Below the pieces are notes generated by a model, which searched no databases, was not told the origin of the DNA, and saw only the letters and a program-made list of their open reading frames with translations. A program made the translations under genes and the position numbers. A stretch of 64,000 nt of DNA from Brachionus manjavacas (taxonomy: Eukaryota; Rotifera; Eurotatoria; Ploima; Brachionidae): positions 380,001 to 444,000 of the forward strand of contig JAHQIY010000015.1 of NCBI GenBank assembly GCA_019054805.1, in the 5' to 3' direction. This document shows positions 1,800-52,186 of this stretch, in pieces. Within the stretch, counting starts at the first letter, position 1, and each line of letters starts with the position of its first letter.

Positions 1800-3770
1800 C
1801 ATACAGTTCTGGCCTCAAAATTTTAAGATCAGAACTGAATACGTTCTGAACTTCGTCTACTTTAATATTAATAGTTGTCCAACAGTTTTGAGCCGAGTGG
1901 TCTTTTGCGCATATAAAAATTGTTTTTTTCTATCAAAATTTTCACGTAGTTTATGAAGAAGTCGTTGATGCGGTACCGTATCAAAAGCCTTTGAGAAGTC
2001 TAATAGTATTTCATCCACACTGTTACCTTTGGCCAACTCAGTCGTGATCATATCAAGCGTTTCAAGTAGATTCGTTCGGGATTTTTCCTGTCTCTAATGA
2101 TTTTTCGAAAATTATCTTCAATGGAACTGACATCGTTTTTGCGCAGTTTTTCAGTATCAGTGGATGTACTTGGTCTGTGCCCATCGATTTGTTGCCATTT
2201 AATTTCTCTAGTCTCCGTTCAATCAGATCCTCGTTTAGCACCTGCATGACATTCTCAATATCGAAAGTAGAGGAAGTACGTAAAGGAAAAAAAGTTAAAT
2301 TATCATTGGTTTCTTTATTAAAGACTGAATGAAACTGATCATTTAATAGCTCAGCTATCAGTTTTTTGTCACTCGTTACTTCACCCTCTTTTGTTCTTAA
2401 CATTCTTATTTCTTCCTTTACACCCATTTTGCTTCTTACATAGACATAAATTAGTTTCGGATCACTTTTTGCTTTTTTAGACAGTCTATTCTCATAATCG
2501 GATTTTACATTTCTTAACTTCTGTTTTAACTCTCTACATGCTTTTCCATAATAATATTTACTTATTTCAAATGAACTTTTATTACATCCTTTCATCTTAT
2601 AACAAGCTCGATGCTTTAGTTTTATCACTCTATTAACCTCGTAGTTAATCCATTTTTCGCTCTTTCGCAAATTCTCTCTTTTCTTGAGTACGTTTTTCTC
2701 ATAGAGTCGCAGATACACATTCAGAAAACTTGCATAACATTCATTAAGATGCCGTCCAACAAATTCTTTTTTCCAGTCCACTGACCACATACCAGTGTTG
2801 ATTTGGTGAAAATCAGCTTTTCTTACGTTTTTTCTCTTTTTTTTCGTAAATCTTGTGCTCACATCTTTCATTGCAAATTTCTACTATATCAACAAATGAG
2901 CCTTCTCGGCTTCACCTAGTGGTGGCAAAGCCCTCACTTCCAGAACTCTTTCAGGCTCACTCGTTAACAGTAGATCAAGTACACTTGAATTTCCATTTTT
3001 TCCATATATAAATGTTGGAAAATCCACACACTGAATCATATACGATTCATCTAAGCCTTCCAAGAACCGCATCTCATTTTCTCCACTGGCATTTCCGCCA
3101 TCACATGTCCAGCTGATTTCTCGGAAATTGAAATCTCCACAGACTACCACCGCATTATATATTTTATTCTCAATCATTTTCCTTGCCTCTTTTAATGAAT
3201 CATTCACACACACAGTGACAAAATCATTAGTTTTAGGTGGTCTGTACATGCATCCAACCAACAAACTTTCAGCACCACTTCTCACGCCACACCATATCTG
3301 TTCAACACCATCTGCACATAAAACTCTACATGTCACTTCCATCGAACACAGATCATCTCTCACATATATAAAAACTCCACCGCCACGTCCCGTTCTGTCT
3401 CTTCGGTATAAAGTATATCCAGATATACACGGTATCGAGTATTCGGAATACCAAGTCTCAGATACACATACAATATGTGGCCTATCCAACTTATCCAACC
3501 GGACAACAAGCTCCGTAAGTTGGTTGTTGAGTGAAGTGGCATTTGTATAAATACAAGTGAGAAAAGGTTCACGAACACTTATCCTTTTCTTATCTAAACT
3601 ACAATTCAATAAAGGCGACCCAAGAAATTTATTGACCTGGCTAGAAAAAGATCCACCACTCCCCCTAACTATTCTATTAGCACTAATTACATAATTATTT
3701 TTAACTTTAAAATTCTTCTCAGTTTTTCTATTATTTCTATATAATAGGCAAAAAAATCGGCTCCAAATCT
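1800..3770 (-). pseudogene. Dead non-LTR retrotransposon: endonuclease plus fragmentary reverse transcriptase
   Basis: Read on the minus strand, 3770 to 2884 encodes an APE-type endonuclease of a Jockey/CR1-like LINE. Visible motifs are SETWYSE, the RRDRTGRGGGV block, YRPP, CGDFN and a final PPLGEAEKAH in place of the usual SDH. Two in-frame stops near 2881-2886 interrupt it. The same frame continues at 2871-2062 as the lysine-rich linker up to GTDQVHPLILK and TGKIP. The product then jumps directly to the block just before RT motif A (LETLD, then LDFSKAFDTVPHQRLL, 2051-1857). About 70-80 codons, including the RPISLT region, are therefore missing, and the YADD box is absent too. A short C-terminal-like stretch follows down to about 1800. 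It cannot move by itself. Confidence 0.85.
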
Positions 3771-4175: not shown

Positions 4176-7100
4176 TTAAACATCGTTGATGTTATAAGTA
4201 GGCTCATTGGTCTGATTCGGGTTGCCATACGCTCCATTACTGCTGTAAAAAGACAATTTGGATTGTCGATGCGCATTTTGTATATTGCTGCTGACTTGGT
4301 GCAAAAAAATGTCATTGACTTTGACGCGCGGCTTCTGCTTCAGTTGATTGCCCTTGCCCTGGCTGAGCGCGTGCCATCTCCGTCTAAAGACCACGTCCAG
4401 CGACTTGTTATAAGAGCCCTTTTGTTGTCTATACTTTGACTGCAGATAATTGCTATTGTAGGTTTGAATAGAATTGGCGCCAACAGGCATGTAGACCGAT
4501 GCTGCTGCGTCGCCATCATACACTTTCGAGCCCATCGAAGTCAAATCTAAATTGAATAGGAAAAAAAATAAAAAAAAAAATAAAATTTTGTTTGTTTCTC
4601 TTTTAATTTTGTTATTACCAGGATGATTATTGTACGGATATTGACTGTTGTACTGGGACTGGTTGTAGATGATCGAAGTGGCCCCATTGGGATTGTAAAT
4701 GTTGTCCTGATAGTTGTAGTTTTGCTGGTCTGCATTTTGGTTGTACTCGTTGTCGACGTCATAGTCCGGCGCTGGCAAATCCTCCTCTTCAAAACCCTTG
4801 ATCTGCTGCAACACCTTCACAGTCTGCACCACGTCCTCCACTTCCATTTGATTGATGTTAAACTTTCTGGCGCACACTTTCAAGTCAGTCGAGGCCAGCA
4901 AATGCAGCACAGTGCCATACCGATGCCACAACATGGACACAAACTGAATGATCAAAATGGTGGCAAAAAAAATCAAAAATCCAAAGCCGAGCGGCTCGAA
5001 CCTGAGCGGCTCGTAGTTCAACCTGGGTATGGGAATGTAAATGTAGTCTCTTACTTTGGACTGGACCAATTGCAAGTGAAATATGATCACCATCCACAAG
5101 GCGTTGATCATAAAAAAAGCAAAGCAGCCATTGTTGCGCAGCGCCTTCAGATCTCTGGCCACTTTGGCCTCGTAGTTCTTGTCGGCAATGAGCGGATGCA
5201 AGTAGCGCTCAATGAGCTTGTTGTAAAAGTGAGTTTCTTTGGCGTCCAAAAAGCCAAGCGGACACTGGTCCAAATAGGCCACCTCGATCCATGCCGGATT
5301 CACCAAGTCATCTCTTTTCTTCGCCTCTTCTTTGTCATAGTAATTGTTGCTAGCACAACTCTGAGTGCCATTTCTCTTTCTCACATTGGACACGCTCAAC
5401 TTGGACCTGTTCTGATAGATCTGCGTCCTGTTCAGCCGCTCTTCCACTTCCTCCTGGTTCAAAAAGCCCAAATCGACGCCGTCGATTTCTTCTTCGTTTT
5501 TGATGCGCTCAATGCGCTCCAAAGTGCCCAATATTTGCTTCAAAATGACATTGTTGGTCTCGTTGGTCTCGATGCCGAGCCAGTCGCGCAAAAAGCCCTT
5601 CAGCGACTTGCTATACTTGGACGGATTGACAATGTTGATGGTAAACTGGCCCAGAAAGCTCTTCTGCTTGGCCTTTTTGGCCGCCTCTTTTTTCGCCTCC
5701 AGCTTGGCCTTTTCCTCTTCCTCTTTGGTCATGTTTTTTTTCACCGACTTTTTTTTCTCTACTTCGCGCGTGCCCCACGACACCACGTTCAAATTGCACA
5801 GCGAATAGATCAACAAGAGCAAGTAGCCGGACGGAATGGTCAAAAAGTAGAGAGCGCCGGGCACAATGCACCAAAACTCCTGCGGATGGGTGACCGACGC
5901 TATGATAAAGATGGCAAAGAGCATGATGAGAAAGACCGCGTTGGGCGAGGTCCACGAGTCCTCGGCTATTTGAATGGTGGTGCCGACGATGACGGCCATC
6001 ATGATCACGGCATAGATGGCGCTCATGAACGCGGCCACCCGGATCTGAAAGTCCGTCGTGGTTATGTAGCACAAGAGCAGGTAGATCATGGCGGGCACCA
6101 CCGACAACAAGAACGAGTCCCACAAACTGGTGCCGAGGCACGCGTTAAACGCGCCGCATATCATCAGAAGCACAGTGGCCGGTCCGAGCACCGTCGACAC
6201 CATTAGCAGCAGCTGATAGACAATGTACAAATAGGATATGCTGTCGTTGACCTGCACTATGTGTTTGTAGTCGGCCAAAAAGTCCAGTATGTTGGCTATG
6301 GTCGAGGGCACCCAGCGACGCCGCTGGTTGTAGAACTCGTGAAAGGACTCGGGCGCATAGGTCAAGGCGTCCGAGGCGGCGCAGTACTCGACCCGGTAGC
6401 CTTCTTGCAGGAGCAGTGTGCAGAGCCAGCGGTCCTCGCCTTGGTCGTACTGGACGTAGTGGCGCGCCTCCGACGACTTCATTTGGTAGGTGCGCAACAC
6501 GTGATCGTCGACCACTGACGACCCGCGGAACAGCGAAAAACAGCCCGGCGAACACATCACACAGCCGAGTATGTGCTCGGCCGCCTTCTGCAGCCAATGG
6601 CCAATGGCGTACTCGAATTTCTGGTACCAGACCATGGGGCCGGAGCCGATGGGGTGGATGCGGCCGCACGCGGCGCCCACTTTTTTGTTCTTTTTCATGC
6701 GGTCAATGAGCAAGCGGACGGCCTCGGGCCTAAAGTCCACATCGCCGTCCAGAGCCAGCAAAAACGTGTTCTCGGCTCTGACCCGGTCCAAGTCGTCCAT
6801 GTTGTTCAGCAAATTGCCAAAGCCTTTGAAGCACTTTGACTTGGACTTGCCATTCGACTTTTTGCTATTGTACTTTTTTTTGTACAGCTTTTCCATTTTG
6901 TCCAAGTTGCCAAATATCTTCCAGCCGATTAGATAGTAAATGTACATCACTTGACTCCAGCGTTTCTTGTGACGAATTTTAGTCTTGTCCTTGAGGTGAG
7001 CGATGAGCAGGTTGCCGCCCGGCAGTATCCAAGTGAGGCGGCCGCCGTACGGCGTCGGCTGTTTGAGCGGCGCCGCTATTTTCATGGGCACCTCGTGGAC

Positions 7101-10100
7101 CGAAGTGGCCGCCTGGTCCATCACAGACACCAGTATTTCCACAAATTGGTTGGGCACCATTTCGCCGTCGTCGTTCTCTTCCATGGCGTCGTCGAAAAAT
7201 ATGTGGCCCTCGTACTCGTAGTAGTCCGGGTCCTTGATGCCAAAGTACTCTTGGGCCTTGCGTCTCGCGCTCTGGTCAATGTCCAAGCGCATTATTGACT
7301 TGAGCAATTGCAGCATTTCGGTCTCGGTCTCGTGCCACATGGTCGCACAGCTGTATATCACAATGTTCACGTCTTTTTTCAGCTTGGTCTCCATGTCGCT
7401 GTCCATGGACTCGTTTGGTGAGGCAGGCTCGCCCGCCGCTTTGAATTTAAATAGCAATTAGTTTTAAGTGACACAATCAACAGCATCTATTATGTGCTAC
7501 AGGACAGAATGGGGCCAAAACAACCAAAAAAGACAAATTTAAAATATCAATCGAAAAGATGTACAGTGGTGTTCGGGATTTGGTAATTTACGTAAAAAAA
7601 CGTAAGTTTACCAGATTTTACGTAAAATTATGTAAAAAAAAATTTGTCCAAAAAATTCAAATAATTTGGCACTTTTTTAAAAAATTGAATTTTTTTTTTC
7701 CTTAAATATTTATTTTCAAATTTATGAAAAAAAAAATTTACCATAATTTACGTAAATTTTGGTAAAATGTAATCAATTTAATGGTAAAAAATGGTTGATT
7801 AAATTTTTTAATTAAATTTTTTAATTACGTAAAAAAAAAATATCTTAATAATTTTTTCAATGCTTTTTAATTGTTTGACCAACTTTTCAATTGTTTGTTT
7901 TAATTTATATTTTAAATTGTAACCTTTTATAAATTTTAAAGTAATTTTGACATTTTACCAAAATTTACGTAAATTATGGTAAATTTTTTCAAATTGAAGG
8001 ATAAAATAAATTCAATTTTTTTAAAAAAGTGCCAAATTCAAAAAATTTCAATTTTTTGGACATTAATTTGATTAATTTGGCACTTTAAGTCAAAAGGGTT
8101 CGTGGCAGAGCCCTGGTATAAGTAAAATGGGCTTAGGTCAAAACAGGGTTGTTTAAAGTTTACAAGTCTCAAGTCAAGTCCAAGTCCGGACTTTGAAATT
8201 TTTTTAAATTTTCTTAAATTAAACTGAGTCAAATAAATAGCATCGGCAACCCATCAGTCAAAATGACGGACAAATGAAGTTTCTGAAGTTCCAGGTAGTT
8301 ATTATGATGGCCTAGCAAGTGTCAATGTTCGGCCTTGGACTTTAATTTGGCACTTTTAAACAACTCTGGTCAAAAGGGTCCGGGGCAAAGCATCAGGGTT
8401 TCGAGTAAGCAGAAGTTTAGGGTCTTTTTAATAAATTAGTCTTAACTTTTATTTAAAGTTTTATTTTTATTAAAATTAGCGGTGAGGAAAATTATGGGCC
8501 TTTGTTAACTTGCCTACTTTTTTATTTTGCAATTATTTAAGTAAAAAAATGCAAGTGAGTCATCTAAATTTAGCTTTAGAATTAATACAACTGAATATAA
8601 AAAAATTATTTCATTTAAATTACTCTAAAGTGAATAGTGCGAACGATTTTTTAAATTTTTCCGAAATGTTGATAAGTCGATGTACCTGTTTCATTTTTCA
8701 CACTGCATTTACAAAAATGTCATTAATATTGGCCTTAAAATACTTTACTGCAACAATGAAATTTTTTCAAGTTGAGATGGAAAATTGATGATTTTATAAA
8801 TGATAAAAAAGAACAGAAAAAATGTAAAAAATTGAATAACTTTTTTTCTAAAGGTTTAAACTTAGTTCTGCAAATTTAGCAGACCTTAATAATTGATGCA
8901 ACTTTGAATGTTGCACAATGTTGCATTTACAGAACTAATTTTAAACTTTTAGAAAAAAGTTATTCAATTTTTTTACATTTTTTCTGTTCTTTTTTATCAT
9001 TGATAAAATCGTCAATATTCCAACCCAACTTGAAAAAATTTCAGTAAAGTATTTTTTAAGGCCAATATTAATGACTTTTTTGTAAATGCAGTGTGAAAAA
9101 TGAAACAAGTACAGCGACTTATCAACATTTCAGAAAAATTAAAAAAATCGTAATAATAATTTAAAAAATAATTTTAATTATTATTTAAATTAAATAATAA
9201 TATTTTTATTTAATTATTTTAAATAAAATAATAAAATAATTATTTTATTTTTACCCTTAGTTCTTTTGTACTTTACTTCACAAAACCCCATTGAAGCTTT
9301 CCATCTACTGATTTTAAAAACGTCCGAATGACAATAATGAATTAATTGATTACTTTGAAAACTATATTTTTTAGAGCTATGAAATCACTCACTGAAATGA
9401 CAATTTTTTTTAAATTAAAAGTTAAAATCTTATTCTATTTTATTTAACTATAGTTGACTCTTAAAAAAGAAGATTCAAACAAAGGCTTAATGCCTGGGTT
9501 TTACTCAGGTATCCAAAATTATTCATTAAAAAATAAAATAATCATTTATCTCTAATTTGAATTTAATTAAAATTTATTTTTTTTCTTAATGAATTAATTG
9601 ATTATTTTTTTTGCTTTTATAAATAAAGATATTGGGACACTTTTGTTCTGCAAAAAAAGGTTTAAAAAATTTTTAATAATTACCTTCGTCCACTGAGGCC
9701 TTGTTGTCGAGGACCGAGTACGCGTCGCTTCGCTCATAGCGGCGTCGGTTCATCATCAGCGATTGTTCAGTCAGAATGGCACAATAGCCGGGCAAGACAA
9801 ACAATCTGTCGGTAAAAGCCAATCGTTGACCCTTGCCGAACCATACATGTCCGCCTATCCACAGCTGCGACAACCACCAGAAGCCAAGACCGCATATCAC
9901 TTGCCATTTGAACGAGCCCGTCTGATAGCCCTCGTGGCACGTCCAGTACACAAAGTCATCGCTGAGCACAGCCGATTGCGGAAACCATTTGCAAATGACG
10001 AGAGCCACGGACAGAGTGATCGGCGTGACCAGGGTCAGAGGAAGAGCAAAGCCCAATCGCTGCATGCACAGCTTGCACGCTAGTCGGCCCGTGTAGTAGC

Positions 10101-13100
10101 ACAGAGCCGAGCAGACCACTTGCAGAATCATGGGCGCCAAATAGGTGATCCATCGGTCTTTGTAAGTGGGCTGATCTTCCACTGTCCGCATGGGCACACT
10201 GGTCATTGACGGCACAAACATCTGAGCAGCAGTGTACGCCAGCAAAGTGTCGTTCAAAAAGTCAGCTGATCGTTTTTTGAGCGGTAAGGGCGGTGGAGGT
10301 GGCGGCAGCGGTCCAAAGCCGGCCATTTGGTCACCAGACCAAGCACCGCCATTGGCGCCATACTTGAATCGGCTGTCGGCCACATCATCAATTGTTCGGA
10401 ACACTTTGCTCGAGTTGAATATGCCCGGGTGAAATATGTAGGCAAATAGAAGCGTGATGGCTATTTTCCACACACTTGTCATCATGCTTGTCTTGATCCT
10501 GGTAGCGGCGATGTTCTCCTTGAGCAGTTTTATGTTGACAAACTTGTACGAGCCGCATTTGATGTCGCGGTCGACAAAGTTCTCCCACCAGACCAGCGAG
10601 ACTAGCATGAGCGCTATGGGCAGCTCCCATTCGATCTGAAACGAAGACAAAATGTCCTGCAGTATCAAGTTGGTGCCGTTGTTGGGCACGGATTGAGCGG
10701 GCAGAGGCCGAGTGGTGTCGAACGCGTCCAAAAAGTAGTCTGCTTGGCGCTTTTTGAGCGTGTCGAACGAGTCGTACAGGGTGTCGGTGGTGAAGAGGTC
10801 GCTGGTGGCGCCACCGGCGTCAATGTGCGGCGCTGGAGCCGTTCCTGTGTCCGACTTGAACATGTACTTGGACGCGAACACTATGCCGAACACGGTGCAT
10901 TGCATGGCCACGGCGCAAAAGTCCATCACGAATATGACGAGCTTTCGCGCTGCGTTCACGTGGTTTTTGCTCACTAGAAATTTGAGGATGCCTGGTATGG
11001 TGCAGACGGCGTTCATGATGAGAATGGCGCGTGACACGTCCAGTTTGGGCAGCACTCGGAACACGAATATGGACATGCCGAAGCTGTGCGCTGTTTCGAT
11101 CACCAGGACAAAGAGCATTACTTTAAGTGTGGGCCATGGCTTGTTGCCGAACAATGCTTTGAAAATGCTGTCAAAAAATGTGAACATGTAGGGCGCACAA
11201 ATGCTCGATATCAACATCCAGACCCAGCGTTCTTTGTACGCATTTTTGTCACTCTTTGTTAAATTTTTTTAATTATTTTTTTTGTTTTAATTTTAGAAAA
11301 TTTTATAAAGTAGCTTTGCTTGAGATTCAAAAATTATTAATAATACAAATTAAACTTTTTTTCAAACAATTTTTGACAATTTAAATAATTAAAAAAAATT
11401 AATTTCAAAATGAATTTTAAAAGGATTTAAAAATAGCTAAATTTCAATTTTATTATTTGAATTAAACAAGAAATTTGATGTAGAAATCCTAGCGACAAAA
11501 AATTAAATATCTCTTAAAATATTTTTCAAAAATTATTTTTGTTTAATTAATGCAACAATTAGACCAGTAAAGGAATTAAAAAGTTAGCTTAAATTAAACA
11601 ACTCTCATGTTTCTACAGTTTTCAGCTAAACTCAAGATGTTAACTTACAATATAATAAAAAAGAAGCAGGCCACAAATTTTTAATTTTATCAAAAAAATT
11701 CAAAGAACTTGGAATCTTCTAGAAATAAAGAAGAATAAAGAAAATTAGAGTATAATTCGAATTCGAAATTTGTTTTTATTCGAGTTAATATAATTAAATA
11801 TAAATTTTAATATAATTTTTTTTTTTACTTTTAAATTTTAAATAATTATTAAATATAAAATAAAAAAAATTTTAAACTTTAAAAAATAAAAGAAAGACTT
11901 ACCGGAGACAATCAAAGATCTGTGGACTTAGAGAGAAAATTGAAAGAGGGGGTCTCGTTTAGTTTTATTTTTTACCATTTCGAAATTTAACTATCAAATT
12001 TTTGTATTTGCTAGACAAAAATTAGAATTGTTTAAATATTGGGACTTTTTTGCTAAGGAAAAATTATACAAATTTTGAGTCAAAATTAATTTGAAATTTT
12101 TCTATTTACATTTGCTCGGAATCAGGCAAAATTTGTATAAAATGTTAAGCATTATCTTTAAATTAATTTCTTTTTGAATAAATTTAGTTTTTTTCACATT
12201 CTAGATGAAAATTTTTTAAACCCTAAAGACATTAATAAAATTTAAAAACAAATTAAAAAAATTTAATCAGTCTAATCCCTCGATTTATGTTCCAAGCACG
12301 TCATAGCTTATTATTAGGTTTATTTTAATATATAAAGTTGTTTTTTTTTTCTAAATTTAAGGTCTCTTTATAATTAAATTAATTCTTTGCTGGTTTTTAT
12401 TTCCAATTGAATTTTTTTTTTAATTTTATATTTTGCTAAAATTAATACATCCAGCTATTTATACTCGATATTATATTAAATAAAGATACAACAAATTTTT
12501 AATCAGCAAATATACTTTAAAGAGAACAAAATGTCAAATTTTAATCCATAATTTTTTTATATATTAGTTATTTTTTGAGCCAAGTAGATAGGTAAACTTT
12601 GCAATTAAAATCTTTTCTTAATTGCTTGTTTATCATTAATGCCTGTAAATCCTTGAATATCAAGTCAATATTTACAAAGTTTTTTGTTTACCTATCCAAA
12701 TAAGATTCTCAATTTTTGAACTGTGACAAATCAACCACAATTAAACAAAAATTTTATAATTTTAAATGAATAAAACCCTCCTAAACAACTTGTTAACTTT
12801 AGATTTTTTAATTTATTTTAAATAAAAAATTGATATTTTTTATTCAAATAAAATTTCAGCTGAAATAATTTTACAACAAATTTTAAATTACCGTTTCGAC
12901 ATGTCCAACAGCGTTGGTCATCAGCAAAAATGCTCCTTTTCCAATTATAGCTGTAGCAAGCACTACCAAACCAAGCACTATATAAGTGCACACTTTGAGT
13001 ATTTGTAGAGACAGATGAAAAAAATGAACTCTTTGTTCATAAGTCTCTTCTGTATCTACGCACCTGGCCGTGTCCCAAACCTCATAAAGCATTCTTTGAA

Positions 13101-16100
13101 AACATAAAAAATAATTAATTTTTTTTCTTAAAAAAAAAAAAAAAAAAAGAAAATACTTAAAGTTGGCATCCAAATCGGGTTCGTTCATAGCTTTCATTTT
13201 ATCTTCGGCACCTGAGCCTGCTACATGTCCACTAATTTGAGAAAAATTCGATATGCTGGTGTCATCGAATTCTTTTTTGGCCTTTTGCAAATCAGCCTGT
13301 TCTTTCTTGAACAGGAACTGTTTTCGCTGAGCGATCATTAACTTTCTGAGAATGCTTCGCTTGTGGCCATAGTTCAGTTTAAGATTGACCATCTCAGTGC
13401 CTTGCTGGTTGTCTTCTGGATTAAATGGAGTCGATTGACGATTCTTTTGGCCAAGATCGTGGGCCAAAAGAGCAATCTCATCATCGGTCAGAAATCCTGC
13501 TGTAGACTTGTACTCGTGCACATCACTGTAGTCCAATTTTTCCACCTCGGACTCCAGCTCTTCCCACTTATCATCAGAAATCAAATTTAACTTTTTGACC
13601 AGCTTAAGCATCTCATTGTAGTCCTCTCGGTCCACATAGTCCTTCATTTGTCTCTCAATTTTGTTCTTTAGAGTCTTTATTTTTTCCTTTTTGTGATGGT
13701 GTTTGTTGACATCGGACTGATTGTTGTAGTGGTTGTGCGAGTTCATGGTAAACGAGGTGTCCGAGTCCATTTTTTTAAACTTCGATGATTTGGTATCACT
13801 CAAATTGTTGTCCTGATTGTTGTAATTATTGTAGTTTGTTCTATTTGAGCTTTTTAGGTTCGAATTGGACGAATCGTCCACAAAATCAGACATTTCGTTC
13901 ACTGTCTTTATCAGAATCAAGTCGCTTCTCTGCAATTAACAACTCCGAATTATTTTAATACAAATGTAAATCAAAGCGACAAATTTCATTTTAATACATC
14001 TAGAAATTCAATTTTTTCTTAAATGAATCCTTATTTTTTGTTCATTGTCACTTATTCACATCAAGTTAATTTAAAATTTATTTAATCATCCTTTTCTTTG
14101 TAATTTACCCTTTTTTCAATAGTAAAAATATTATTTACATAATAAACACTATTCTAATTAATACAAAAAAATGTTTTCTTTTTTTAAATTAAATTAAGGC
14201 TCATTTTTAAAATAAAAATTCAATAATCATTTACTTTTCATAGTTGTTATAAAACTAATTTAATTAATTGAACATTTTTATCTAAATTTAAAAAAAAAAA
14301 TCTCAATTATCGAAAAAATGTTAGAATTAAAAAAATTTAATTTCGTCTCACTTTAAAAATTTTTTTATTATTATTTAACCCCTCTTATTTATTTAAAATT
14401 TTTCTTGAAAGCTTTAATTAATACATTAACCAAAATTATTAATTTAAATAAATATTTTTCTTACAAATTATTATTCTCAATGGGTTGAAACTAATCAATA
14501 TCAAAAATTTGATATTAAAAAATTTAATCAATTTATCCTAATAATCAAAATTGATAGTTTTATTAATTTTTTACTGTCCTTTTCATTAAATTAATGTTTA
14601 AACCAAAATTTTTAATTAAAAAAAATATTTTTTTTACAAATTATTATTCTCGATGGGTTGAAACTAATCAATATCAAAAATTTAATCAATTTATCCTAAT
14701 AATCAAAATTGATAGTATTATTAATTTTTTACTGTCCTTTTCATTAAATTATTATTTCAACCAATTTAAAATTAATCGCTTTTAAACAAATTAAGAACAA
14801 ACTTTAATTTTAAGTCTATTATTTGAGCTAATGTGTTCGTAAGCGGCCAGACCGAGGCTTTGAGCCAGGCTTACGAAAAGAATTTTGTCTTCAGTCTGGT
14901 CCTGGACCATTTCTAGCATTCTTAGCAGTCTTCGGCGGCACAGGAAGCCCCGTACCATTTTTTGGCACACAATCACCTGGCTTACCAAACTATCTAACTG
15001 TTGATTGAGTATTTCCGGGTGCCACATTTTCAAAAAAACCTACACAACAAATAATTACGAAAGGTTATAATTGTTTTGAATCAAGGAAAGTAATTGTAAA
15101 CCCCGGAACCCACACACACACATACACAAACATAAAAATACACACTTTCATTTAATTTAAATTGAAATAAAATTTAAAAGACTTAACCTTTTTTAGTTAA
15201 AATAAACGTTCGAGTTATAATAGGAGATAAAATTTTTATTAAATATTCACTAATACCCTAAAGACTTATCTATTTTTAAACAAAAGAATTCATTTTAATT
15301 AATAACTCGATCCGTAAGTTTAGGTTGCGCAACGGCTCAATGCAGAATCCTCGCGTAATCTCCGCGAAAATATTCAATTAATTTAAAGCTTTTTCTTTTT
15401 TTTGTTTCTTTCTTTATTCCTAAGCAATTTTCCAATTAAGATCAAAATAGAAAGAGTTTTTTTACAATCGACTGGCAAATAAGCAAGAGTAAGCTAAAAC
15501 TAAAAATTAACACGACCATTTTTTGACAATATTTATTAATCTGATTAAAGCCTATTAGTCGGGATTAACCCCGGCAAAATTTAGAGATATCGATGGTCGT
15601 GTCTATTTTAAAGATTAGAAAACATTTAGTAAACAAAAAACAACAAAATCCCAGCAAATTAAATGTCTTTTATATGAGAAAAAAAAGCTAACCTAATTTT
15701 TGTCTAAAGTTTAATAAATGCTAAAATATTGATTTTTAATTTAATTCCGCCCTTGTTTACATTTAATTAATATCCTTGATTCAACCCCCCATTGATTAAT
15801 GCTTACTTTGGTCTTGCCAATTGCGTAATCCTTGATATCAAGCTCTTTCAGGATGGACTCGCAGTGTTTGCCAATGGGCTTGAGCTCTTTGCACATAGGA
15901 AACGCGATTATCTGGTACTTGTCCAAAAAGTCCTCGAAGTGCATGCGATATGGCCAGCCTTGGTTGCGTATGTGCGCTATGTCCAACAAGCCATTGTACT
16001 TGAGCTGCTCGGATATGAGATCTTGGTCGAATTTGTTCGACTTGCGCTCATGGTTTGGCTTCAGACACCTGAAAAAAAATTGCTAAAATTTTGCTCTAAA

Positions 16101-19100
16101 TTAGCTCTGATTTGACTACTTTTTGTCGCATTTTTTGTCTACACTTCTTAGGCTTTTCTTATTAAACTCGTTAGAAAGCAAATTATCGCCGTACTCATAG
16201 TTATAATTGAGCACGGCAGCACTCACACTCTGATCTATTGATGCATTTACGTCATTGGAACATTTGGTCAAGTTTAAATTTAAATTTAAATTATTCATTA
16301 AGAACACACTAAATTTTTATTTATTCTTAATTAATTTAAAAACTAAAAGAGAAAAATTAACTTCTAGAGTTTTTATTAATTTTCTATTTTTTTTTCAAAA
16401 GAAATAAATATTTTGATTATCAATTAATTTAATTATAAGTCAACATTTTTTTTTTAATTACCTCTGAATTTGTAAGATGACGAATTTTTTTGTAACTAAA
16501 AAAAAGATGAAATCCCCAATTTGTAATTTATTTGAAATATTTTTATTTTTAAATAAAAATTTAAATCAAACACCTATCTTATATAAACTAAGACGGGATA
16601 TTTCCTCAAATTAATTAATCTTGATTATTCAATATTAAAACATAGTTGAAATATTTGTAACCCATAGATAATACAAACATACACAAGTTTAACAAAATAT
16701 TTTCCTAAACACTTAATTTGGACCTTTGTTAACTATGTCCTTAGTTTAAACAAGCAAATATTTGCCATCAACTAGCTCGTATTTGCTAGCTAGGGCGTTA
16801 CCGCTATTCAATTAAGACCCATAATATCAATAGAGGACCTCAGTAGTCTCAACACTCAATTGTTCGGCTAAAATTTCAAAGTGGTCTCTTAATTAAAATA
16901 GCCGCTTATAATTGAAAATAAATTGTTTATTTGCTTTTTAGTCTATCTATCTACGTTCCGAGTATGTTTACTATAACTTTCTTTTTTTCTAAAAGTTAAT
17001 TGTTCACGGTCTAAACTCGCTCTTTAATAGTCAAATCTAAGCTTTTAATAATCTATTTTTTTACCGCACAAAGAACGGCTCCGCGTCTTTCATTTTGTCC
17101 AATAGTTCGGCCAACGAGTTCTATATTAAACAAAAATTTAAAAAATTTTAACATAATATTTCTCAATCTTACTCTAAAATGACAAGTCACTGTCACTTGA
17201 TTTAGCTTATCTTTTTGAATTGTATTTGTTTTAAGTGTTTGACTTAAGAATACAAAAATTTTGAAATAAATAAAAAATTTTATTAAAAAATTACATTCTT
17301 TTTTTGATACTCTTGGTCCTCTTTTGGGTAAAACTGTCCCTTTGTCTTCTCAACTCGTTGGATTTTGGCCGCGATGGCAAATACGGCTTGGCAATAAAGG
17401 CAGTGGCCGAGCGCGAAATTGAGCCCGACTCGGTTCTCTCCACAGAAAAGAGCTCCGATACCACTTCTATATTTGAGTTTTTCAAGCATTCAATGATGTT
17501 TTGGCTCAGATTGTCGCGGTTTTTCTCCAAAAATCCTTTGGCGTTGTAAATCACCCTACCAGCGTAGTGGTTGATGCCAAAAGTGAGATCAGTGGCTCTT
17601 GAGCGCACATATCTGTCCGAGTTTTTCCAGTGAGAGTAGAATTTCTCGACCAGTGAGCTGTCAGAGGCTCGTGGAAACTTTGACTCCTCGTCTAATAAAG
17701 CAAATAGTCCCAGAGGACCCATGAACACTTCTATTAAGTCTTCGTTGTTTTGAAAATCGACAATGTCAAACGGAATGCCTTCATTGAAGTATTCTTCCTC
17801 TTCTTGTAGAAAAATGTGCTCATTGAAATAAAACTGTAGATGTTCATTAGCTGCATTGATGCACAATTGCTCGAAGCTGTTTAGAGAAAAATTTTCAAAG
17901 CCCGACATGTCCAAAATTCCGATTGACGGCAACAAGTCAAGCTTTTCCCTTTGAAATTTAATAAAATTGTTTTAAAATTTTCTTTGTTTAATATTTTAAA
18001 GCTAAGAAGACTTGTCACTATTTATAGTTTGACAAGCACTTTGTATCTTAATCCGCTATCCGTGAAATTTTTGCAACAAATTCGGGATTATTTATAAATC
18101 AAAATAGCTAGATTTTAAAACAGGATATATTTCCTAAATAATTGAACAAAAACAAGATTTTTTACTATTCAAAGCTTTTAATTTTTTTTCAAATTTTAAA
18201 TTCTAAATCTCTTTTTTAAATATATAAAAATATTTAGCTAATAAATTTTGAAAAAAACATTTTTTTAATTGTTTACCCGAGCGCACTATTCGGCTGCAAA
18301 AGCTCATTAATTTGATGAACAATCCATCCAAACAAGCGTTCATATAAAGCTTTGGCAAGTGCATCGCGTCCATCATTAGCCTGGTCTTTATTTTTCAGAC
18401 TAACCACTTTTTCTCCTTTGGTAACATTCGAGCTGGATATGAGGGCAGTGGCCAAAATTTCCTGGTCCAAACACAACAAATTGGACACAACTTCAAGAGG
18501 ATACTCATCGTCAATGTAAACACCGTCAGTTTCTTCGTCTTGGCAGAAAGAAATGTTGGTCAAGTGCAAAACGGCAGCTAAAATGGTAAAAATGAGCGTG
18601 ATGTCCTCATCCAGAAAGCCAACTCTTTTCATTATGTCTTTCTGAGCCTGGAACATCATTTTGCAGTATTTGATCTCGCTCTTGGTCAAATAGGCCTTGC
18701 AGCCCGCACTAGTTCCAAGGATGCGAAAATTTTCCAATGAATCCAGATAGTAATATTCCAATTCCTCTTTTTCCAGTCCGCTAAACATGTAATAAAATAT
18801 GTGGTAGTTTCTTTCGCCCGGTCCGTGATTGACCACTCGGGATTTCTCCAGCAAATAGTCATAGACCTTGGCGCCAAGTATTTGTCCTTCATCTGTAAAA
18901 ATCATTTGAACAAACTTGCCAAATCGGCTCGAATTAGAGTTCATGCATGTCTGTGCATTGCCAAACGCCTCCAACAGTGTGTTCACATCTACAATCTTTT
19001 TTTGCAGTTCCTTATCAAAATCAGTCTTGCACAGGTAAATAATGTGCTGTATCATGAGCTTAGTGCTCTCAGTTTTTCCTGCTCCAGACTCACCCGACAC

Positions 19101-19508
19101 AGCTATGCACTGAGTCGCTTTGTGAAAAAGCATGCGCTGATAGGCCGCGTCTGCCACCCAGAACACATGTGGTGTGAGCAAAGAGCGGAACCTCACTTTT
19201 GAATAGGCCCTGTGCTGCTCTTTCTCGTATATATTCAACTGTTTGAACGGATTTACGGCAATCAGCACATCTCCAATATAAGTCTTTAATTAATAAAATA
19301 AAATTTTTACAAAATATTTAATAAATTTTTAGAATAAAATATAAAAAAAATTTTTTTTCTTTCTTACGTATATTTGTCCATTTTTGTAGCGAACATAGAG
19401 TTCGTTTATAAGAGCCTGTTCATCTAGAAAGTCAAGCTTGGACAAATCGTCCACTTCGCCTTTTCCAGCAGTTCTATATGATTGATCGTACTCAGAAGTA
19501 ACCCGCAT
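4176..19508 (-). CDS. Myosin motor-chitin synthase fusion protein (12 exons)
   Basis: The product is a membrane chitin synthase (family GT2, UDP-GlcNAc to chitin) with an N-terminal myosin motor. Exons, in coding order: 19508-19368, 19283-18277, 17948-17295, 17242-17173, 17120-17065, 16068-15807, 15039-14803, 13929-13157, 13093-12892, 11253-9684, 7438-4619, 4546-4176. All have GT-AG borders and matching phases, giving about 2,720 aa. Motor: P-loop GESGAGKT at about 111-118, switch I NSNSSRFGKF at about 162, switch II DMSGFE at about 396, FRNSLAELLDKM, FVRCLKPN, and one IQ motif at about 754-767. A charged, Asn-rich linker follows (about 810-1075). Next come the N-terminal membrane helices (exons 9-10), the GT2 core with ALDGDVDF (about 1886), EDRWLC (about 1992), QRRRW (about 2029) and SWGTRE (about 2211), then more helices. 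Fusions of this kind are known in mollusc shell and other lophotrochozoan chitin synthases. The start at 19508 precedes DDLSKLDFLDE by only about 20 residues; an upstream exon is not excluded. The short fourth exon (70 nt) is my inference from phase and from myosin homology. Confidence 0.93.
4547..4618 (-). other. Stop-free 72-nt intron in chitin synthase C-terminus
   Basis: On the minus strand the intron starts GTAATAAC and ends with a pyrimidine run and TTTAG. It splits a codon after the first base (G|AT, Asp). Its length is 24 codons with no in-frame stop, so splicing and retention both keep the frame open. Retention would add a Phe-rich hydrophobic stretch to the Asn/Tyr-rich cytoplasmic tail. 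Confidence 0.7.
7562..8065. mobile_element. MITE with TACAGTGGTG terminus and TACGTAA-rich arms
   Basis: The left end at 7562 reads TACAGTGGTGTTCGGGATTT. Two arms of about 120 bp form an inverted repeat (about 7640-7775 against 7948-8065). Both carry TTTGTCC/GGACA, GGCAC and the TTTACGTAAATT core. The right terminal TACAGTGG is missing, so the copy is truncated. It lies in the intron between exons 10 and 11 of the fusion gene. TA-flanked CAGTGGTG ends are typical of Tc1/mariner-derived MITEs. Further copies or ends are seen at 33421, 47467 and 63851. Confidence 0.75.
8644..9150. mobile_element. Palindromic foldback element, about 507 bp
   Basis: The left arm (8644 to about 8880) and right arm (about 8915-9150) are near-perfect reverse complements around a loop near 8897. 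Shared blocks include CGATTTTTTAAATTTTT, TTTCACACTGCATTTAC, the GAACAGAAAAAATG run and GTTTAAACTTAGTTCTG. It has no coding capacity; short open frames inside are chance. It lies in the same intron as the 7562 element. A shorter relative is at 20,300-20,610. Confidence 0.8.
13094..13156 (-). other. Stop-free 63-nt intron in the fusion-gene linker
   Basis: The intron reads GTATTTTC, a long T run, then TTTTCAAAG on the minus strand. It splits a Lys codon (AA|A). The length is 21 codons with no stop in frame, so the reading frame survives retention. It separates the hydrophilic linker from the first chitin-synthase membrane segment. Confidence 0.7.
14452..14757. repeat. Imperfect direct tandem duplication in intron 7
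   Basis: Two units of about 135-140 bp, at 14452-14592 and 14624-14757, share AATTATTATTCT, GGGTTGAAACTAATCAATAT and TTTTTACTGTCCTTTTCATT. The second unit has lost about 15 bp around GATATTAAAAAATTT. It lies in the intron between the IQ-motif exon and the linker exon, with no coding sense. Confidence 0.75.
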
Positions 19509-22434: not shown

Positions 22435-23348
22435 AAATAAGAATTGTTAGTGAAGAAATAAGACTGGATAACGATTATACGTTAGACGATACAACAGACC
22501 AAGATGACTTTCAAGAACCAGTAACAATTAAATCACGAGGAACTGGAAAAATCTATCTACATCACAAAAATTATGAAAGTAATGAAATATTTAAAGAACA
22601 GCTAGAACAAAATTCAATCAGCTCAACAAATTGGAACTCAAATGGCTCAAAGATATTAAAAAACGATAGAAAATTGGAATATTTTTGTCGATACAAAAAA
22701 AATGGATGTAAAGTAGCAATGTATGCATTGACAGCTGATGAGAATCTATTTCGAGTATTTATTTCAGATAATGAACATACTTGCCATCAAGACAATGAAG
22801 AAGAAACAAAAATTCCAGAAGAAACACAAAAACACATCAAACAATTAGATTCACTTGGAACAAAACCAGAAGCAATATTTCATCAATTAACAGTTTTAGG
22901 TATTCCGCCAGTTAAAAAAAGCGACTTGACAAATTTTCTTCAAAAAATTCGTACAGAAAAGAAAGAAGTTGCTATGCCTACACTACAAGATCTTAAAAAC
23001 TGGTGTGATAATCGATTATAATTACCAGAAAGTGAAGATCAAGTATTTGTTGGTAAAAACGAAATTCAAGCATTGCCTGTACAAACGTTCAAAATATTTC
23101 TGACAACAAAAAGATTACTAAGCTTTGCGTGCATCAACAGTCATATTTTATCTGATGCGACTTACAAATTATTATATGGTGGATTTCCACTATTGACCGG
23201 TGGAACAACTGACAAATCAAGAAAACTACATCCATTTGGTTTAGCACTATGCAAAACAAAACAAGAAGATGATTTTGCTTTTTATTTCAAAGCTCTAAAA
23301 GAAAATTGCAAGAAACACTTGGATTTTACAATTAATCAATTGAATTAA
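22435..23348 (+). pseudogene. MULE transposase relic, N-terminal half
   Basis: One reading frame is open from about 22435 to 23348 except for a single TAA at 23019-23021. It begins without an ATG. Residues YFCRYKKNGCKVAMY ... NEHTCH form a FLYWCH/WRKY-like zinc module typical of Mutator-like transposases. A helical linker follows, then the start of the DDE domain: SDATYKLLYGGFPLL with the probable first catalytic Asp at 23153, then HPFGLAL and DDFAFYFKAL. It stops before the second half of the catalytic domain, and a LINE fragment begins just downstream. It is an inactive fragment. Confidence 0.8.
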
Positions 23349-23404
23349 ATACTTTTTAATGACGTTCATTTTCCTGCAAAAAAAATGCACGTCAAATATT
23401 AATA

Positions 23405-23640
23405 ACTCAAAATATCCTTCTTGAGATTATTGACGTTGTCACATCGGCGATGAAGAATAAGAAGCCTATATTCTTCGACTTTGCGAAAGCCTTCGATAAG
23501 GTTCCTCATAGCAGGCTGAATAAGCTAAGAAGTGTTTGCATTCACAGACAACTTCTCGACTGGATTAAACTTTTTCTGAAGGGTAGGAGACAGCGTGTGG
23601 TCCTAGGTTCACACGTCTCAAATTGGAAATATTTTGAAAA
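23405..23640 (+). pseudogene. LINE reverse transcriptase fragment
   Basis: The frame encodes the RT motif A block FFDFAKAFDKVPHSRL, followed by LLDWIKLFLKGRRQRVVLG and VSNW, as in Jockey/CR1-type LINEs. Residues are deleted between the Ile and Phe before FDFAKAF and at NKLRS, and the YADD region is gone. It abuts the 3' side of the MULE relic. Confidence 0.8.
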
Positions 23641-23959
23641 AAGCAAAAATTTCTAATTGAAAACAATGAGTCCTTATGTCCGAATAATTGTATTGTTACA
23701 GGTGAAAAATTTTTTTAAATAAATTCTAACCAATATGAATTACCATCATCTAAAACGTTATTGATTAAGCTTAAAAAAATAATTTTTAAATTTTTAAATG
23801 TAATTCTTTGAATAAAATTAATTTCATCTTGAAAAGTAATTACTTCAGTATTTTTGAATAGGTGTTTATCAAATAATTTTAGATAAATTATTAGATAAAT
23901 TATATTTGTAAACAAATAGATGAAGATTTTTTATAGTTGAAAAAAATTCGAGCATAAAT

Positions 23960-29991: not shown

Positions 29992-31250
29992 GGCTAATTA
30001 TATTTTTTTCACTAAAATTTCTGAATCAAGCACCAATTTTACTTTAATAAAAAAAAGAACTCATAATTTTCCCAACAAATATTATTGCATCTAATTTTTC
30101 GAAATAATTATGTAAATTCTGAATGCTTTTATAAGTTCTGAAAAAAATTTGAATTAAAAAAAACTAAAATGATTGATATTGAAATTGAAAATTTGATGGT
30201 TTTTGATGTTCCTGTGGCACAAAAAGTGGTCGAAAAGGACTTTTCAGAGGACGGTGATGACTGTTCTGTAGACGGAGAAGCTAACAATGAAGAGCAGAGC
30301 AAAAAAAGGAGAAGAATAACTGTAGTGTGGAGTTTTGTCAAACAATTTGACAATGAGACGTTTGTGGAGTCCGAAATAAGATCTAAATGTCCTGAGTTTT
30401 TACTTGCCGATGGTGCTCATTCAATAACAAATGGGTTCGAAAAAGTTTTCGGCGAAAATTACAAGAGAATTATGTGTTGGGCTCATGCTGAAAGAGCTAT
30501 GGAAAGACATCTAAAAATCGATAAAGACACAAAACAAAAAGTTTTAAAAGATATTTTCTCTTTGCAGTTAAGCTTTTCAGATTTGAAATTTAAGTTAGGC
30601 TATAAACTCTTAAAAGAGAAGTGGCTAATTAATGAACCAGTCAAAGGAATCGAAGAATATTTCGATTATTTTGAAAAGGAATGGATTAATTCCTCTAACT
30701 TTGGCTGGTTTGAAGGTTTAGCCCCTTCTTACCCAAGTACTAATAATGCTTTAGAAGCAACCAATAAATCAATAAAAGATGTTCATACTTTTAGAGAAAG
30801 AGTCCCATTCTCTCAATTTATTGAACGTTTAAAGATTATATTAAATCGATTTTCCACTGATAGGTTAAGTTTGAAAAAATTTAAAGAGGAGCCAGATATT
30901 TCTGAATTTTGGAAAAAAGCTATTGAATATTTAAGCATATTATTGTAATTGCTTTACACAAAAAATCAATAACAATACCAGAAAAATACTACGATACGGT
31001 TATTGGTTCAAAGCCTAAGCCAGGAAGAAAAAAAAAGGCTCAAGATTGGCATATTATTCAAAATAATTAATTAATTTTTTTATTTTTTATTTTCACTTTT
31101 TGGTGCTAATTAGATTGTTTTTGAATTTTTATAATAAATCTTAATTTTTATATGTGAAAAGAAATTTTTTTGATACCCAAGAAAAATAATAAACACTAAG
31201 TAATATTGGTGCTTTATTCAGAAATTTTATCAATATAAAATTAACATGCC
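29992..31250 (+). mobile_element. MULE (Mutator-like element), 1,259 bp, with 9-bp target duplication
   Basis: The element is flanked by the 9-bp direct repeat GAAAAGAAA (29983-29991 and 31251-31259). Its ends are inverted repeats of about 50 bp beginning GGC and sharing TAAAATTTCTGAAT and AAGCACCAAT. The homologous flank of the second malic enzyme gene at 40,746 has a single GAAAAGAAA and no insert, that is, the empty site. A 9-bp duplication and the encoded protein both fit the MULE superfamily. Confidence 0.92.
30169..30948 (+). CDS. Truncated MULE transposase (259 aa)
   Basis: It encodes the second half of a MULE DDE transposase. Motifs: LLADGAHSITNGF with Asp81, the CWAH motif at 103-106, and NNALEATN with Glu196. 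The part carrying the first catalytic Asp and the FLYWCH zinc module is missing. It is replaced by about 50 unrelated acidic residues ending in a KKRRR basic cluster. After the stop at 30946, another frame continues with a recognisable tail (PEKYYD, KPKPGRKKK, up to about 31,070), so the C-terminus is frameshifted. It is probably unable to transpose alone. Confidence 0.8.
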   Translation: MIDIEIENLMVFDVPVAQKVVEKDFSEDGDDCSVDGEANNEEQSKKRRRITVVWSFVKQFDNETFVESEIRSKCPEFLLADGAHSITNGFEKVFGENYKRIMCWAHAERAMERHLKIDKDTKQKVLKDIFSLQLSFSDLKFKLGYKLLKEKWLINEPVKGIEEYFDYFEKEWINSSNFGWFEGLAPSYPSTNNALEATNKSIKDVHTFRERVPFSQFIERLKIILNRFSTDRLSLKKFKEEPDISEFWKKAIEYLSILL

Positions 31251-31329: not shown

Positions 31330-34627
<3,298 letters not shown>

Positions 34628-40824: not shown

Positions 40825-43422
<2,598 letters not shown>

Positions 43423-48403: not shown

Positions 48404-49804
48404 TCTCTATTAAGTAAATGAAATATAAATTAAAAAAAAAAAGAAATTTTATTAAGAAAGACTTCTATAATTTACTGTTTAATTAATAGTAATATTGGTT
48501 ATAAAAAAAAAACAACGATTTATAGAGTCTATAAAAAATAATAGAGATTAAGGGGTAAAAGGAATTTTCTTTTGGTCGGCTTCTGTCATAGTGCAATTTA
48601 ATTTTATTCTGTTATTAATTTTTTTTTAAAAATAATATCAGTTTAAGTTTGAAGTCAAAAAATTGAATGATGAATAACTTTTAAGAAAAATGTGGATTAT
48701 CGTAAAATAGCCTAATGGGGTGATCTATTTTTTTTGATATTTTCAATTTAGCTAAATAAGATTAAGGAACTAAAAATTTTAAGATCCCTTTTGTCCGAAT
48801 TACGATGAGTTAAAGGTGTTAATCTTATTTCCCTATCTGTTGTCAGCTTTACCCAAGCAATTAACCTAGTAGCCCCGTATTTATTTAGGATTTTATGATT
48901 TTTTTGTTCATATGATTTTGAAAAGATTGAGATGAATTTAGATGATTTTTCTTCTCGAATAAAATTAAAAAAATTTATACAACCGACTTGCCTTTTGTTG
49001 ACCTTTAAGTAAAAATGAAAGAATTTTTTTTTGAAATAATTAAGTTTCTTAAATCAGAAATCAAATAGAGAATTAAGGGATAATGGATTAAGGGGTAAAT
49101 GGTGAACCCTAAAACCCTTTTAGATACCTCGACTAAAAAACTTTATTTTAAGGGCAAATTTAAGGGCAATAGATAAGTATTTCAAAAATTACAAATGTAA
49201 TCAAATTTTACCCTTTTAGTCAATATGTCAAAAAAATAAATAATTTTCATAATTAATTTTTATAGATCAAAATATTAAAAAAAAAACATTTTTGATTATT
49301 AACAATTTTGTATTTTGTTTATTAGAAGATTATTAACAAATGAGTAATAATTAAAAAATTAAAAAAAATTTTTACTCAAACAAATACCATATAAATTTAT
49401 GGTAAAAAATGTATACATGATATAAAAATCTTGTCATTTATATTTTTTTTGAATAATTTAAAAAATTAAGCGCTTTAAAATAAATTTGATTATTAATTAA
49501 AATTCAATTAAAAAAAAATAAAAGAGCTCTTAAATCAAAATTGCACAACAAGCTTAACATATAAATTCGCTTTTAAAAGATTTTTTCAACAAAATTTCAC
49601 TTTTTTTAATTTAAAAAAAAATTGATTTTAATATATTTTATTCAAAAAAAGAACTATGATCAAAGCAAAGTTAATGAGTTAACAATAACGCTAATGTTAA
49701 TAAATAATTGCAAATTTATTTTTTTTTTATTTTAAAAAAATTTTGAAATATTCTCTAAATAAATAAGAACTCGTTTATTTAAGATTAAAAAATATCATCG
49801 CACA
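48404..49804. other. Intergenic interval upstream of USP5
   Basis: No gene seen. The segment is AT-rich with several TTAAGGGGTAAA-like short repeats (about 48,550 and 49,075). The last few hundred bases should contain the USP5 promoter, but no box is identifiable. Confidence 0.4.
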
Positions 49805-52186
49805 ATGAACACTAGACAACTTGTCGAAAACTATTCCAGTCAAGCCAGAATCGCCGCTCAAAGCGACAAAGTCTACAAAGACGAATGTGTGTACACATTT
49901 GACACTGCCGAGAGTCCGGATGGTCTTTTTGTTTGCTTGACCAGCTTTATTGCAGTTGGCAAACAATCACTGGCAACACATTTTGAAAAAACAAATTCTC
50001 ATTTGTATCTTCATATAAAAACCTTACGACACGAAATACTAAATGTCCAAGAGCCAGAAAAAAAAATTACTAAACTGGCCATCGGTGTGGAGGGTGGATT
50101 CGATCTAGCAGAAAAAAAATACTCCTACGAAACCCAATACTCTTTGTTTATCTACCCCGAAGATTTGGAACTACCGCTAGACCAGTCTTACTCGAGTCCG
50201 GACTCTACTGAACAAGTCACCACATCAATCCAGTCCATAATCAAAGCCGAATCGGCTTCGCTCAAACAAGAACTAGATCAAGCATGGGAAGGAGACATCC
50301 GGTGTATTTCCAAGCATTCAAACAATCTGTTACAACTTCCTAATCCGGCACAGATATCTCCAGATCCTAGGACATGGAAATGCGAGGTTTGTGGCATGGA
50401 CAGCAACTTGTGGCTTAATTTAACAGATGGAAAAATTTTTTGTGGACGCCGTCAATTAGACGGCTCAGGCGGCAATAACCATGCAATTGAACACTATGAC
50501 GCTACCAAATATCCGCTGGCTGTAAAATTGGGCACAATTAGTGCTAAAGGAGCCGATGTTTACTCGTATGATGAAGATGATATGGTCGAGGACACAAATT
50601 TGGCTGTTCATTTGTGCCACTTTGGCATCAACATGTCAAAAATGGAAAAAACTGAGAAAACAATGGCCGAGCTGGAGATCGATTTGAATCAAAAAGTTGG
50701 CGAATGGGACAGAATTCAGGAGTCGGGAAGCAAACTGGAGCCGGTTCACGGACCTGGCTATACTGGTATGAAAAATTTAGGCAATTCATGCTATGTCAAT
50801 TCAGTGGTGCAAGTTTTGTTCACAATACCTGATTTTGTGAACAAATATTTCAAAAATTATGAACAGTACAAAAAGGGGCCTCAACGCGATCCATCAGGTG
50901 ATCTTAATTTTCAAATGAGCAGACTGGGCTATGGTCTTCTATCGGGCCGGTATGCTGAGCAAGAACAAGCAATTCGGCCTGTTGTATTCAAAAACCTTGT
51001 TGGCAAGGGACACGTGGAATTTTCGACCAGAAAGCAACAAGATGCCTGTGAATACTTGATTTATTTGATCGATCAAATTGAGCGAAGTTTACGCAAAGAC
51101 TCGGTGGATCCAACGAGCCCGAGTGATTGCTTCAAGTTTCAGCTCGAGGACCGCATTGAGTGCATGCAGACAAACAGGGTCAGCTACAAGCGCAGAGATG
51201 AGTATTGTTTATCGGTGCCCATAGCCAAAGACAAAGCAGTGAATAGGAAACAAGTGGAAGAATGTGAGGCCAAGAAAATAGAGCTGGAAAAGCAGGGTCT
51301 TAAATTAGAGCCGGGCGAAATGGTCCGACCGCAGATTAGACTCCAAGATTGTCTGGATTTGTTCACTCAAAATGAGGTTATAGGAGATTTTTATAGTTCA
51401 GCAGCTAAGTCCAAAGGAGAGGCAAAGAAAAGCATGAAAATTGCCACTTTTCCCGACTATTTGGTCATCCAGGCCAGAAGGTTTGATATGGCGCCTGACT
51501 GGACTCCGATCAAACTGGACGTGTCTCTTCAAGTACCCGATGTGTTGGACTTGGAAAGTTATAGAGCTAAGGGAATTCAAAATGGAGAATTGGAACTTCC
51601 AGAAAATGGTAGTCAAGAGCCTGAGATTGAGCTAAATGAAGCGATTGTGTCACAGTTAATGGACATGGGTTTTTCTGTTGAGGGAAGCAAACGGGCCGTT
51701 TTTAACACCAGAGAGGAGAATAATTCAGAAGCAGCGGTAAATTGGGCCGTAACGCATATGGAGGATGCGGATTTTAATGCACCATTTTCACTGCCTTCAA
51801 GACGACCATCTAAGAAAGCCAAAACTTTTGATGACGAGTCTGTTAGTTCGTTGATTTCTTTTGGTTTTAGTCGAGCTCAAGCAGTGAGAGCGCTGGAGGA
51901 AACAAGTGGAAGTTTGGAAAGAGCGGCCGATTGGCTGTTCAATCACCCTGAAGTCGAAATGGAAGTGTCCGAAAGTTCAAGCGAGAACACCAGGTTGAGA
52001 GATGGCCCGGCAAAATATGAACTTGTTGCTCTTATTTCTCACATGGGCTCAAATGCTAATGTTGGTCATTATGTGGCACACATCAAAAAAGAAAATCAAT
52101 GGGTAATTTTCAATGATGAAAAAGTTGCCAAGTCCGAGAATCCGCCCAAAGACCTAGCTTATTTATACTTTTATAAACGTGTTTAA
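49805..52186 (+). CDS. USP5: Ubiquitin carboxyl-terminal hydrolase 5/13 (isopeptidase T)
   Basis: A cysteine protease that disassembles unanchored polyubiquitin chains. 793 aa in one exon. Order: an N-terminal zinc-finger-like region; ZnF-UBP at about 190-260 (WKCEVC with Cys193 and Cys196, CGRRQLDGSGGNNHA), which binds the free ubiquitin C-terminus; the USP Cys box GMKNLGNSCYVNS with Cys329; the QQDACEYL block; two UBA domains (about 610-655 and 677-720) inserted in the catalytic fold; and the His box GSNANVGHYVAHIK with His755, ending FYKRV. This is the USP5/13 architecture, slightly shorter than vertebrate forms (about 835-860 aa). Orthology to USP5 rather than USP13 is assumed. An AATAAA lies about 60 bp past the stop. 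Confidence 0.96.
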   Translation: MNTRQLVENYSSQARIAAQSDKVYKDECVYTFDTAESPDGLFVCLTSFIAVGKQSLATHFEKTNSHLYLHIKTLRHEILNVQEPEKKITKLAIGVEGGFDLAEKKYSYETQYSLFIYPEDLELPLDQSYSSPDSTEQVTTSIQSIIKAESASLKQELDQAWEGDIRCISKHSNNLLQLPNPAQISPDPRTWKCEVCGMDSNLWLNLTDGKIFCGRRQLDGSGGNNHAIEHYDATKYPLAVKLGTISAKGADVYSYDEDDMVEDTNLAVHLCHFGINMSKMEKTEKTMAELEIDLNQKVGEWDRIQESGSKLEPVHGPGYTGMKNLGNSCYVNSVVQVLFTIPDFVNKYFKNYEQYKKGPQRDPSGDLNFQMSRLGYGLLSGRYAEQEQAIRPVVFKNLVGKGHVEFSTRKQQDACEYLIYLIDQIERSLRKDSVDPTSPSDCFKFQLEDRIECMQTNRVSYKRRDEYCLSVPIAKDKAVNRKQVEECEAKKIELEKQGLKLEPGEMVRPQIRLQDCLDLFTQNEVIGDFYSSAAKSKGEAKKSMKIATFPDYLVIQARRFDMAPDWTPIKLDVSLQVPDVLDLESYRAKGIQNGELELPENGSQEPEIELNEAIVSQLMDMGFSVEGSKRAVFNTREENNSEAAVNWAVTHMEDADFNAPFSLPSRRPSKKAKTFDDESVSSLISFGFSRAQAVRALEETSGSLERAADWLFNHPEVEMEVSESSSENTRLRDGPAKYELVALISHMGSNANVGHYVAHIKKENQWVIFNDEKVAKSENPPKDLAYLYFYKRV

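Follow-up and report, generated by a model that had tools for sequence, protein, structure and literature searches.

The minus strand of the window, by which we mean the whole stretch of 64,000 nucleotides of Brachionus manjavacas DNA that was analysed, very probably carries an intact animal gene whose product, a chitin synthase linked to a myosin, is of the lophotrochozoan type and is assigned to class-36 by its architecture. When the gene was rebuilt from the raw sequence it ran from an ATG at 19508 to a TAA at 4176 in a single frame of 2,720 residues, with 12 exons, GT-AG borders at all 11 introns, consistent phases at every junction and no internal stop across the 2,720 codons. This independent reconstruction bears out the sequence-only reading, which had proposed a complete gene of 12 phase-matched exons at 4176..19508. 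The GC content of the coding sequence is 48% as against 22% for the introns, and the window as a whole is AT-rich (29% GC). Chance open frames were considered as the source of the gene and were rejected.

The motor is complete and matches Myosin_head (PF00063) over positions 1-679 of the 679 in the profile with 678 bits and an E-value of 2.3e-203. Exon 1 (19368..19508, on the minus strand as are all the exons) contains the start codon, an N-terminus of 18 residues and the start of the motor (GQIY), the Pfam motor beginning at residue 19. These 18 residues are all that precedes the motor and an SH3-like domain was not seen there, which agrees with the short N-terminus described earlier. Exon 2 (18277..19283), in which an NCBIfam scan found no match, codes for the P-loop (GESGAGKT at residue 111), switch I (NSNSSRFGK at 162) and glutamate E338 at the TEDS site. 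Switch II, the relay, the lower 50K domain and the first part of the basic loop 2 are in exon 3 (17295..17948), and switch II is DMSGFE, as had been read, at residue 396. The remainder of loop 2, up to and including CHFR, is encoded by the 70 nt of exon 4 (17173..17242); with the boundaries that we chose, loop 2 has 17 K/R and 5 D/E in 65 residues. Exon 5 (17065..17120, NSLAELLDKMKDAEPFFV) has only 56 nt and is followed by exon 6 (15807..16068) with RCLKPN (residue 643) and the SH1/converter region as far as GKTK. HYAG...FLEKNRD is also kept. The functional meaning of these motifs is that generally known for myosins. Exon 7 (14803..15039) adds the end of the converter (VFLK), one IQ-like motif and a post-IQ stretch. 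Thus, of the earlier claims about the motor, the P-loop and both switches are there, and the one IQ motif stands as a single IQ-like motif but scores 15.7 bits, which is below the Pfam cut-off of 20.3. The description of the motor as class-divergent is not borne out, since it has canonical motifs and matches the whole profile; the divergent copy is a paralog on contig C9 that is described below. Among the best 60 of 151 sequence matches to solved structures, myosin X and VIIa came first, at E 7e-144 to 8e-142, and were closely followed by myosin II and XV, an order that is not a classification.

Converter and membrane are separated by 363 residues in the window copy. Exon 8 (13157..13929) is a linker whose first part is of low complexity; it has no Pfam family, and its single-sequence AF2 model has a mean pLDDT of 46.9, at which the fold is not interpretable. 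The first hydrophobic (membrane) helix of the chitin synthase is in exon 9 (12892..13093) and the N-terminal membrane region of the synthase, which matches ChitinSynthase_IV_N (PF23000, E 1.5e-13), is in exon 10 (9684..11253). Exon 11 (4619..7438) encodes the GT2 catalytic domain and the C-terminal hydrophobic helices, and exon 12 (4176..4546) a polar C-terminal tail and the TAA stop. The full GT2 chitin synthase that had been claimed is confirmed by the match to Chitin_synth_2 (PF03142, E 4e-28) and by all five of the synthase motifs looked for, namely, CATMWHET at residue 1688, LALDGDVDF at 1885, GEDRWLC at 1991, QRRRW at 2029 and SWGTRE at 2211. We take SWGTR to be the CS-specific motif of metazoan type II chitin synthases. 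No C-terminal SAM domain, which is found in most type I metazoan chitin synthases, was matched at E 0.001 when the C-terminal frame of 1,093 amino acids was scanned with Pfam; the synthase half thus has the GT2 motifs and the CS-specific motif of type II enzymes and no SAM match. A crude Kyte-Doolittle scan of the protein placed 13 of 14 hydropathy peaks in the tail. Among solved structures the GT2 part matched chitin synthases, with six different sequences (best E 2.7e-13), and had a weaker match to hyaluronan synthase 1. An NCBIfam scan of the synthase frame returned only two matches, both below their cut-offs: NodC with 63.5 bits (cut-off 550) and PgaC/IcaA with 22.9 bits (cut-off 422).

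A search of the genome (114.2 Mb, 61 contigs) for the chitin synthase family found at least four places, and all four candidates were scored. The 30 kb fetched round each of the three other places, on contigs C9, C1 and C12, were searched by tblastn, the window protein being the query and E 0.001 the threshold, and on C9 a motor adjoins the synthase. This second myosin-chitin synthase lies on the minus strand at about 251.3-263.0 kb (fetched stretch C9:249001-279000) and was rebuilt as 12 complete exons, followed by the first part of a thirteenth that was cut off at an arbitrary point. Its motor matches Myosin_head over profile positions 2-679 of 679 with 499 bits and is identical to the window motor at 240 of 696 aligned positions, and its synthase has all five motifs. 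In exon 12 of this paralog the converter (GVSKVFIK) is followed without interruption by 105 residues and then by the synthase's first membrane helix. Since this junction is within one exon, the fusion is visible there without any splice. When nine intron positions were compared between the two genes, three coincided in both position and phase (residues 48, 643 and 1135; these are the 3' introns of window exons 1, 5 and 9), one was a single column off with equal phase (residue 383) and the other five had no counterpart nearby. The C9 motor has a P-loop, GESGSGKT, and a switch II, DMFGFE, but its switch I is altered (NSNSTRFAN), the TEDS position (ungapped) is a glycine and not an acidic residue, and MVIKCRD is found where the window copy has FLEKNRD. 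No IQ motif was matched in it at E-values up to 1, and its loop 2 is less basic with 9 basic and 4 acidic residues compared to 17 and 5. In known myosins the switch I arginine and the switch II glutamate form a salt bridge. The C9 motor is not demonstrably dead because it keeps both. We read the window motor as being under full constraint and the C9 motor as relaxed. With its exon-internal junction and degraded motor, the C9 paralog is a built-in comparison for the window gene.

The C9 paralog bears directly on whether the window locus could be two neighbours mistaken for one, namely, a short myosin that ends near 14803 and a chitin synthase that starts from the exon 8 ATG (MSDFVDD). The donor at 14803, GTTTGT, is the weakest of the 11 as judged by eye and not by a computed score, and it sits exactly at the proposed boundary; the intron there is 873 nt long and an in-frame ATG lies 12 codons past its acceptor. 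However, the C9 exon at 9694-9130 of the fetched stretch spans the SKVFIK converter motif, the linker and the first membrane helix and leaves no gene boundary. Moreover, the phases agree at 14803/13929 (0/0), so that the in-phase junction claimed by the sequence-only reading is upheld, no 72-mer of the intron looks coding (best score -10.7), and the same architecture has been published for related animals. Two separate genes are therefore very improbable because the paralog carries the junction inside one exon, and the locus is best read as a single gene that fuses myosin and chitin synthase, a reading that the gene model supports. Within the fused gene the end of exon 7 is less certain. An alternative donor, GTAAGC at 14874, is in phase 0 and lies 72 nt upstream; its use would end exon 7 early (14875..15039) with the phase unchanged and remove 24 residues, and with either donor the frame runs on into exon 8. 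The 72 nt between the donors score as coding (7.4), a score reached by 3 of 1,014 overlapping intron 72-mers, with 7 of 112 CDS 72-mers as low or lower. Since these 72 nt score as coding, 14803 is the more probable end of exon 7, and a second isoform that is shorter by 24 residues through the 14874 donor is possible. It is still more improbable that the gene is a chitin synthase of the fungal type with a class XVII myosin, gained from a fungus or a contaminant. Myosin-chitin synthase fusions do occur in fungi (PMC3942024, PMC3942036), and in the fungal class V/VII synthases (myosin XVII) a myosin motor is likewise combined with a chitin synthase and works alike. But myosin XVII, as it is described in the text of PMC3942036, has Cyt-b5 and DEK_C, and Pfam scans of the window gene, which covered its motor-neck, linker and synthase frames, matched neither. 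In addition, the synthase part matches ChitinSynthase_IV_N as well, and ordinary eukaryotic genes (a USP5-type hydrolase, malic enzyme and DDAH) are on the same contig.

As an animal fusion protein, the window gene product would have its motor on the cytoplasmic side of a membrane-embedded, multi-pass GT2 synthase. The motor is predicted to hydrolyse ATP, its P-loop and both switches being intact; with glutamate E338 at the TEDS site, gating by heavy-chain phosphorylation would not be needed, and the basic loop 2 may let it bind cortical or microvillar actin. Gripping actin in this way, it could carry, position, tension or hold the synthase where chitin crosses the membrane. From this architecture we infer a direct physical link between the actin cytoskeleton and chitin extrusion, for which the likely sites in a rotifer are presumably the jaws or the egg shell. 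In molluscs the motor-linked synthase has been suggested to act in mechanical feedback (text of PMC2241824 and PMC8003268), and the motor of the analogous fungal enzymes is said in PMC3942024 to matter for trafficking and the site of secretion. A fusion protein whose motor does not move and is merely an actin- or membrane-bound anchor would agree with the general statement in PMC5583752 that ATPase or lever parts are disrupted in some myosins, and also with the C9 paralog, which has no IQ match and is altered in switch I and at the TEDS site. We regard this as unlikely for the window copy because the motifs of its P-loop, both switches, RCLKPN and converter are all preserved and can be aligned with myosins of solved structure. 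Taking a moving motor in the window copy as the preferred reading, we tentatively suggest, as a possibility that we would not favour at present, that the two genes have divided roles: the window copy, with its intact motor, IQ-bearing neck and 363-residue spacer, would move or tension the synthase, and the C9 copy, with 105 residues, no IQ match and altered switch I, TEDS site and FLEKNRD, would be a pseudo-motor that tethers the synthase to actin. If true, such a pair of a mover and a tether would let transport and anchoring be separated within one organism.

Weiss 2006 reportedly described a chitin synthase of bivalves that carries a myosin domain; likened by description, it and the window protein both have a myosin head and a chitin synthase, the bivalve enzyme being one of shell formation. 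The 2017 paper on the class-36 myosins is said to be by Kollmar and Muehlhausen. In the text of that paper (PMC5583752) class-36 comprises the myosins of molluscs, annelids and rotifers in which the motor is followed by multiple transmembrane segments and a chitin synthase. The window protein has a complete N-terminal motor and, in one frame, a tail with a chitin synthase and transmembrane segments, and no difference shows between the two on the features that this text describes. Since rotifer homologs are included there, a myosin-chitin synthase from a rotifer has already been published. Published fusions come from molluscs, annelids, brachiopods and rotifers. Zakrzewski et al. (2014, PMC3942024) divide the lophotrochozoan type II synthases into three motor-linked clades, A-C, and a motor-less clade D, with secondary motor losses in groups B and C. 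Like groups A-C in that text, the genome studied here has an N-terminal motor, no SAM domain that could be found, and paralogs with and without a motor side by side. The sequence-only reading was thus correct, by the text of PMC3942024 and PMC5583752, that motor-bearing synthases are established for molluscs and other lophotrochozoans. The animal fusions originated independently of the fungal ones according to PMC3942024 and PMC3942036, and the latter (2014) places them within class XVI. The word rotifer is absent from the main text of PMC3942024 by term search, and a literature search for chitin synthase and Brachionus returned no title on this gene. The window gene is a clean and complete genomic example of a protein that would couple the actin cytoskeleton to a polymer-extruding enzyme. 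Because gene editing exists for B. manjavacas, as reported in the text of PMC10395877, the role of the motor in chitin deposition becomes testable.

The two other synthases, on contig C1 near 7,517,544 and on contig C12 near 1,786,920, were identified by their Pfam family matches, and in the roughly 21 kb that were fetched upstream of each tblastn at E 0.001 found no motor. The C12 synthase has all five motifs and C1 has four, the first being missed by the search pattern; the C12 Pfam match includes one TAA, which is probably in an intron. In a quartet of the four synthase cores, which consists of own-genome paralogs only and kept 870 of 1,479 alignment columns, the best tree joined window with C12 and C1 with C9 in 90% of 200 bootstrap replicates and so leans against uniting the two motor-bearing copies. 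By p-AU no topology was rejected: p-AU was 0.903 for window with C12, 0.127 for window with C9 and 0.06 for window with C1, and bp-RELL was 0.881, 0.101 and 0.018, respectively. If this tree is real, it would mean motor loss in the other copies or separate histories. Because the C1, C9 and C12 sequences were assembled from the pieces that tblastn aligned to the window protein, identities and branch lengths are biased towards the window copy.

Several other features are present in the window. Plus-strand frames at 22437-23656 and 30142-30948 look by eye like remnants of a MULE/FLYWCH transposase and a reverse transcriptase, and the frames 22437-23021 and 30142-30948 matched no Pfam family at 0.001. 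An endonuclease-reverse transcriptase fragment (Exo_endo_phos_2) lies at 2884-3768 on the minus strand, immediately 3' of the fusion gene. On the plus strand at 49763-52186 there is a USP5-type ubiquitin hydrolase frame of 807 uninterrupted residues with UBP zinc fingers, UCH and two UBA domains. Two malic-enzyme frames, at 31330-32475 and 40825-41973 on the minus strand, are 9.5 kb apart and differ at 22 amino acids, 20 of them in residues 67-115, while the last 638 of 1,146 bases are identical in nucleotide sequence; this suggests a recent gene conversion or a swapped cassette.
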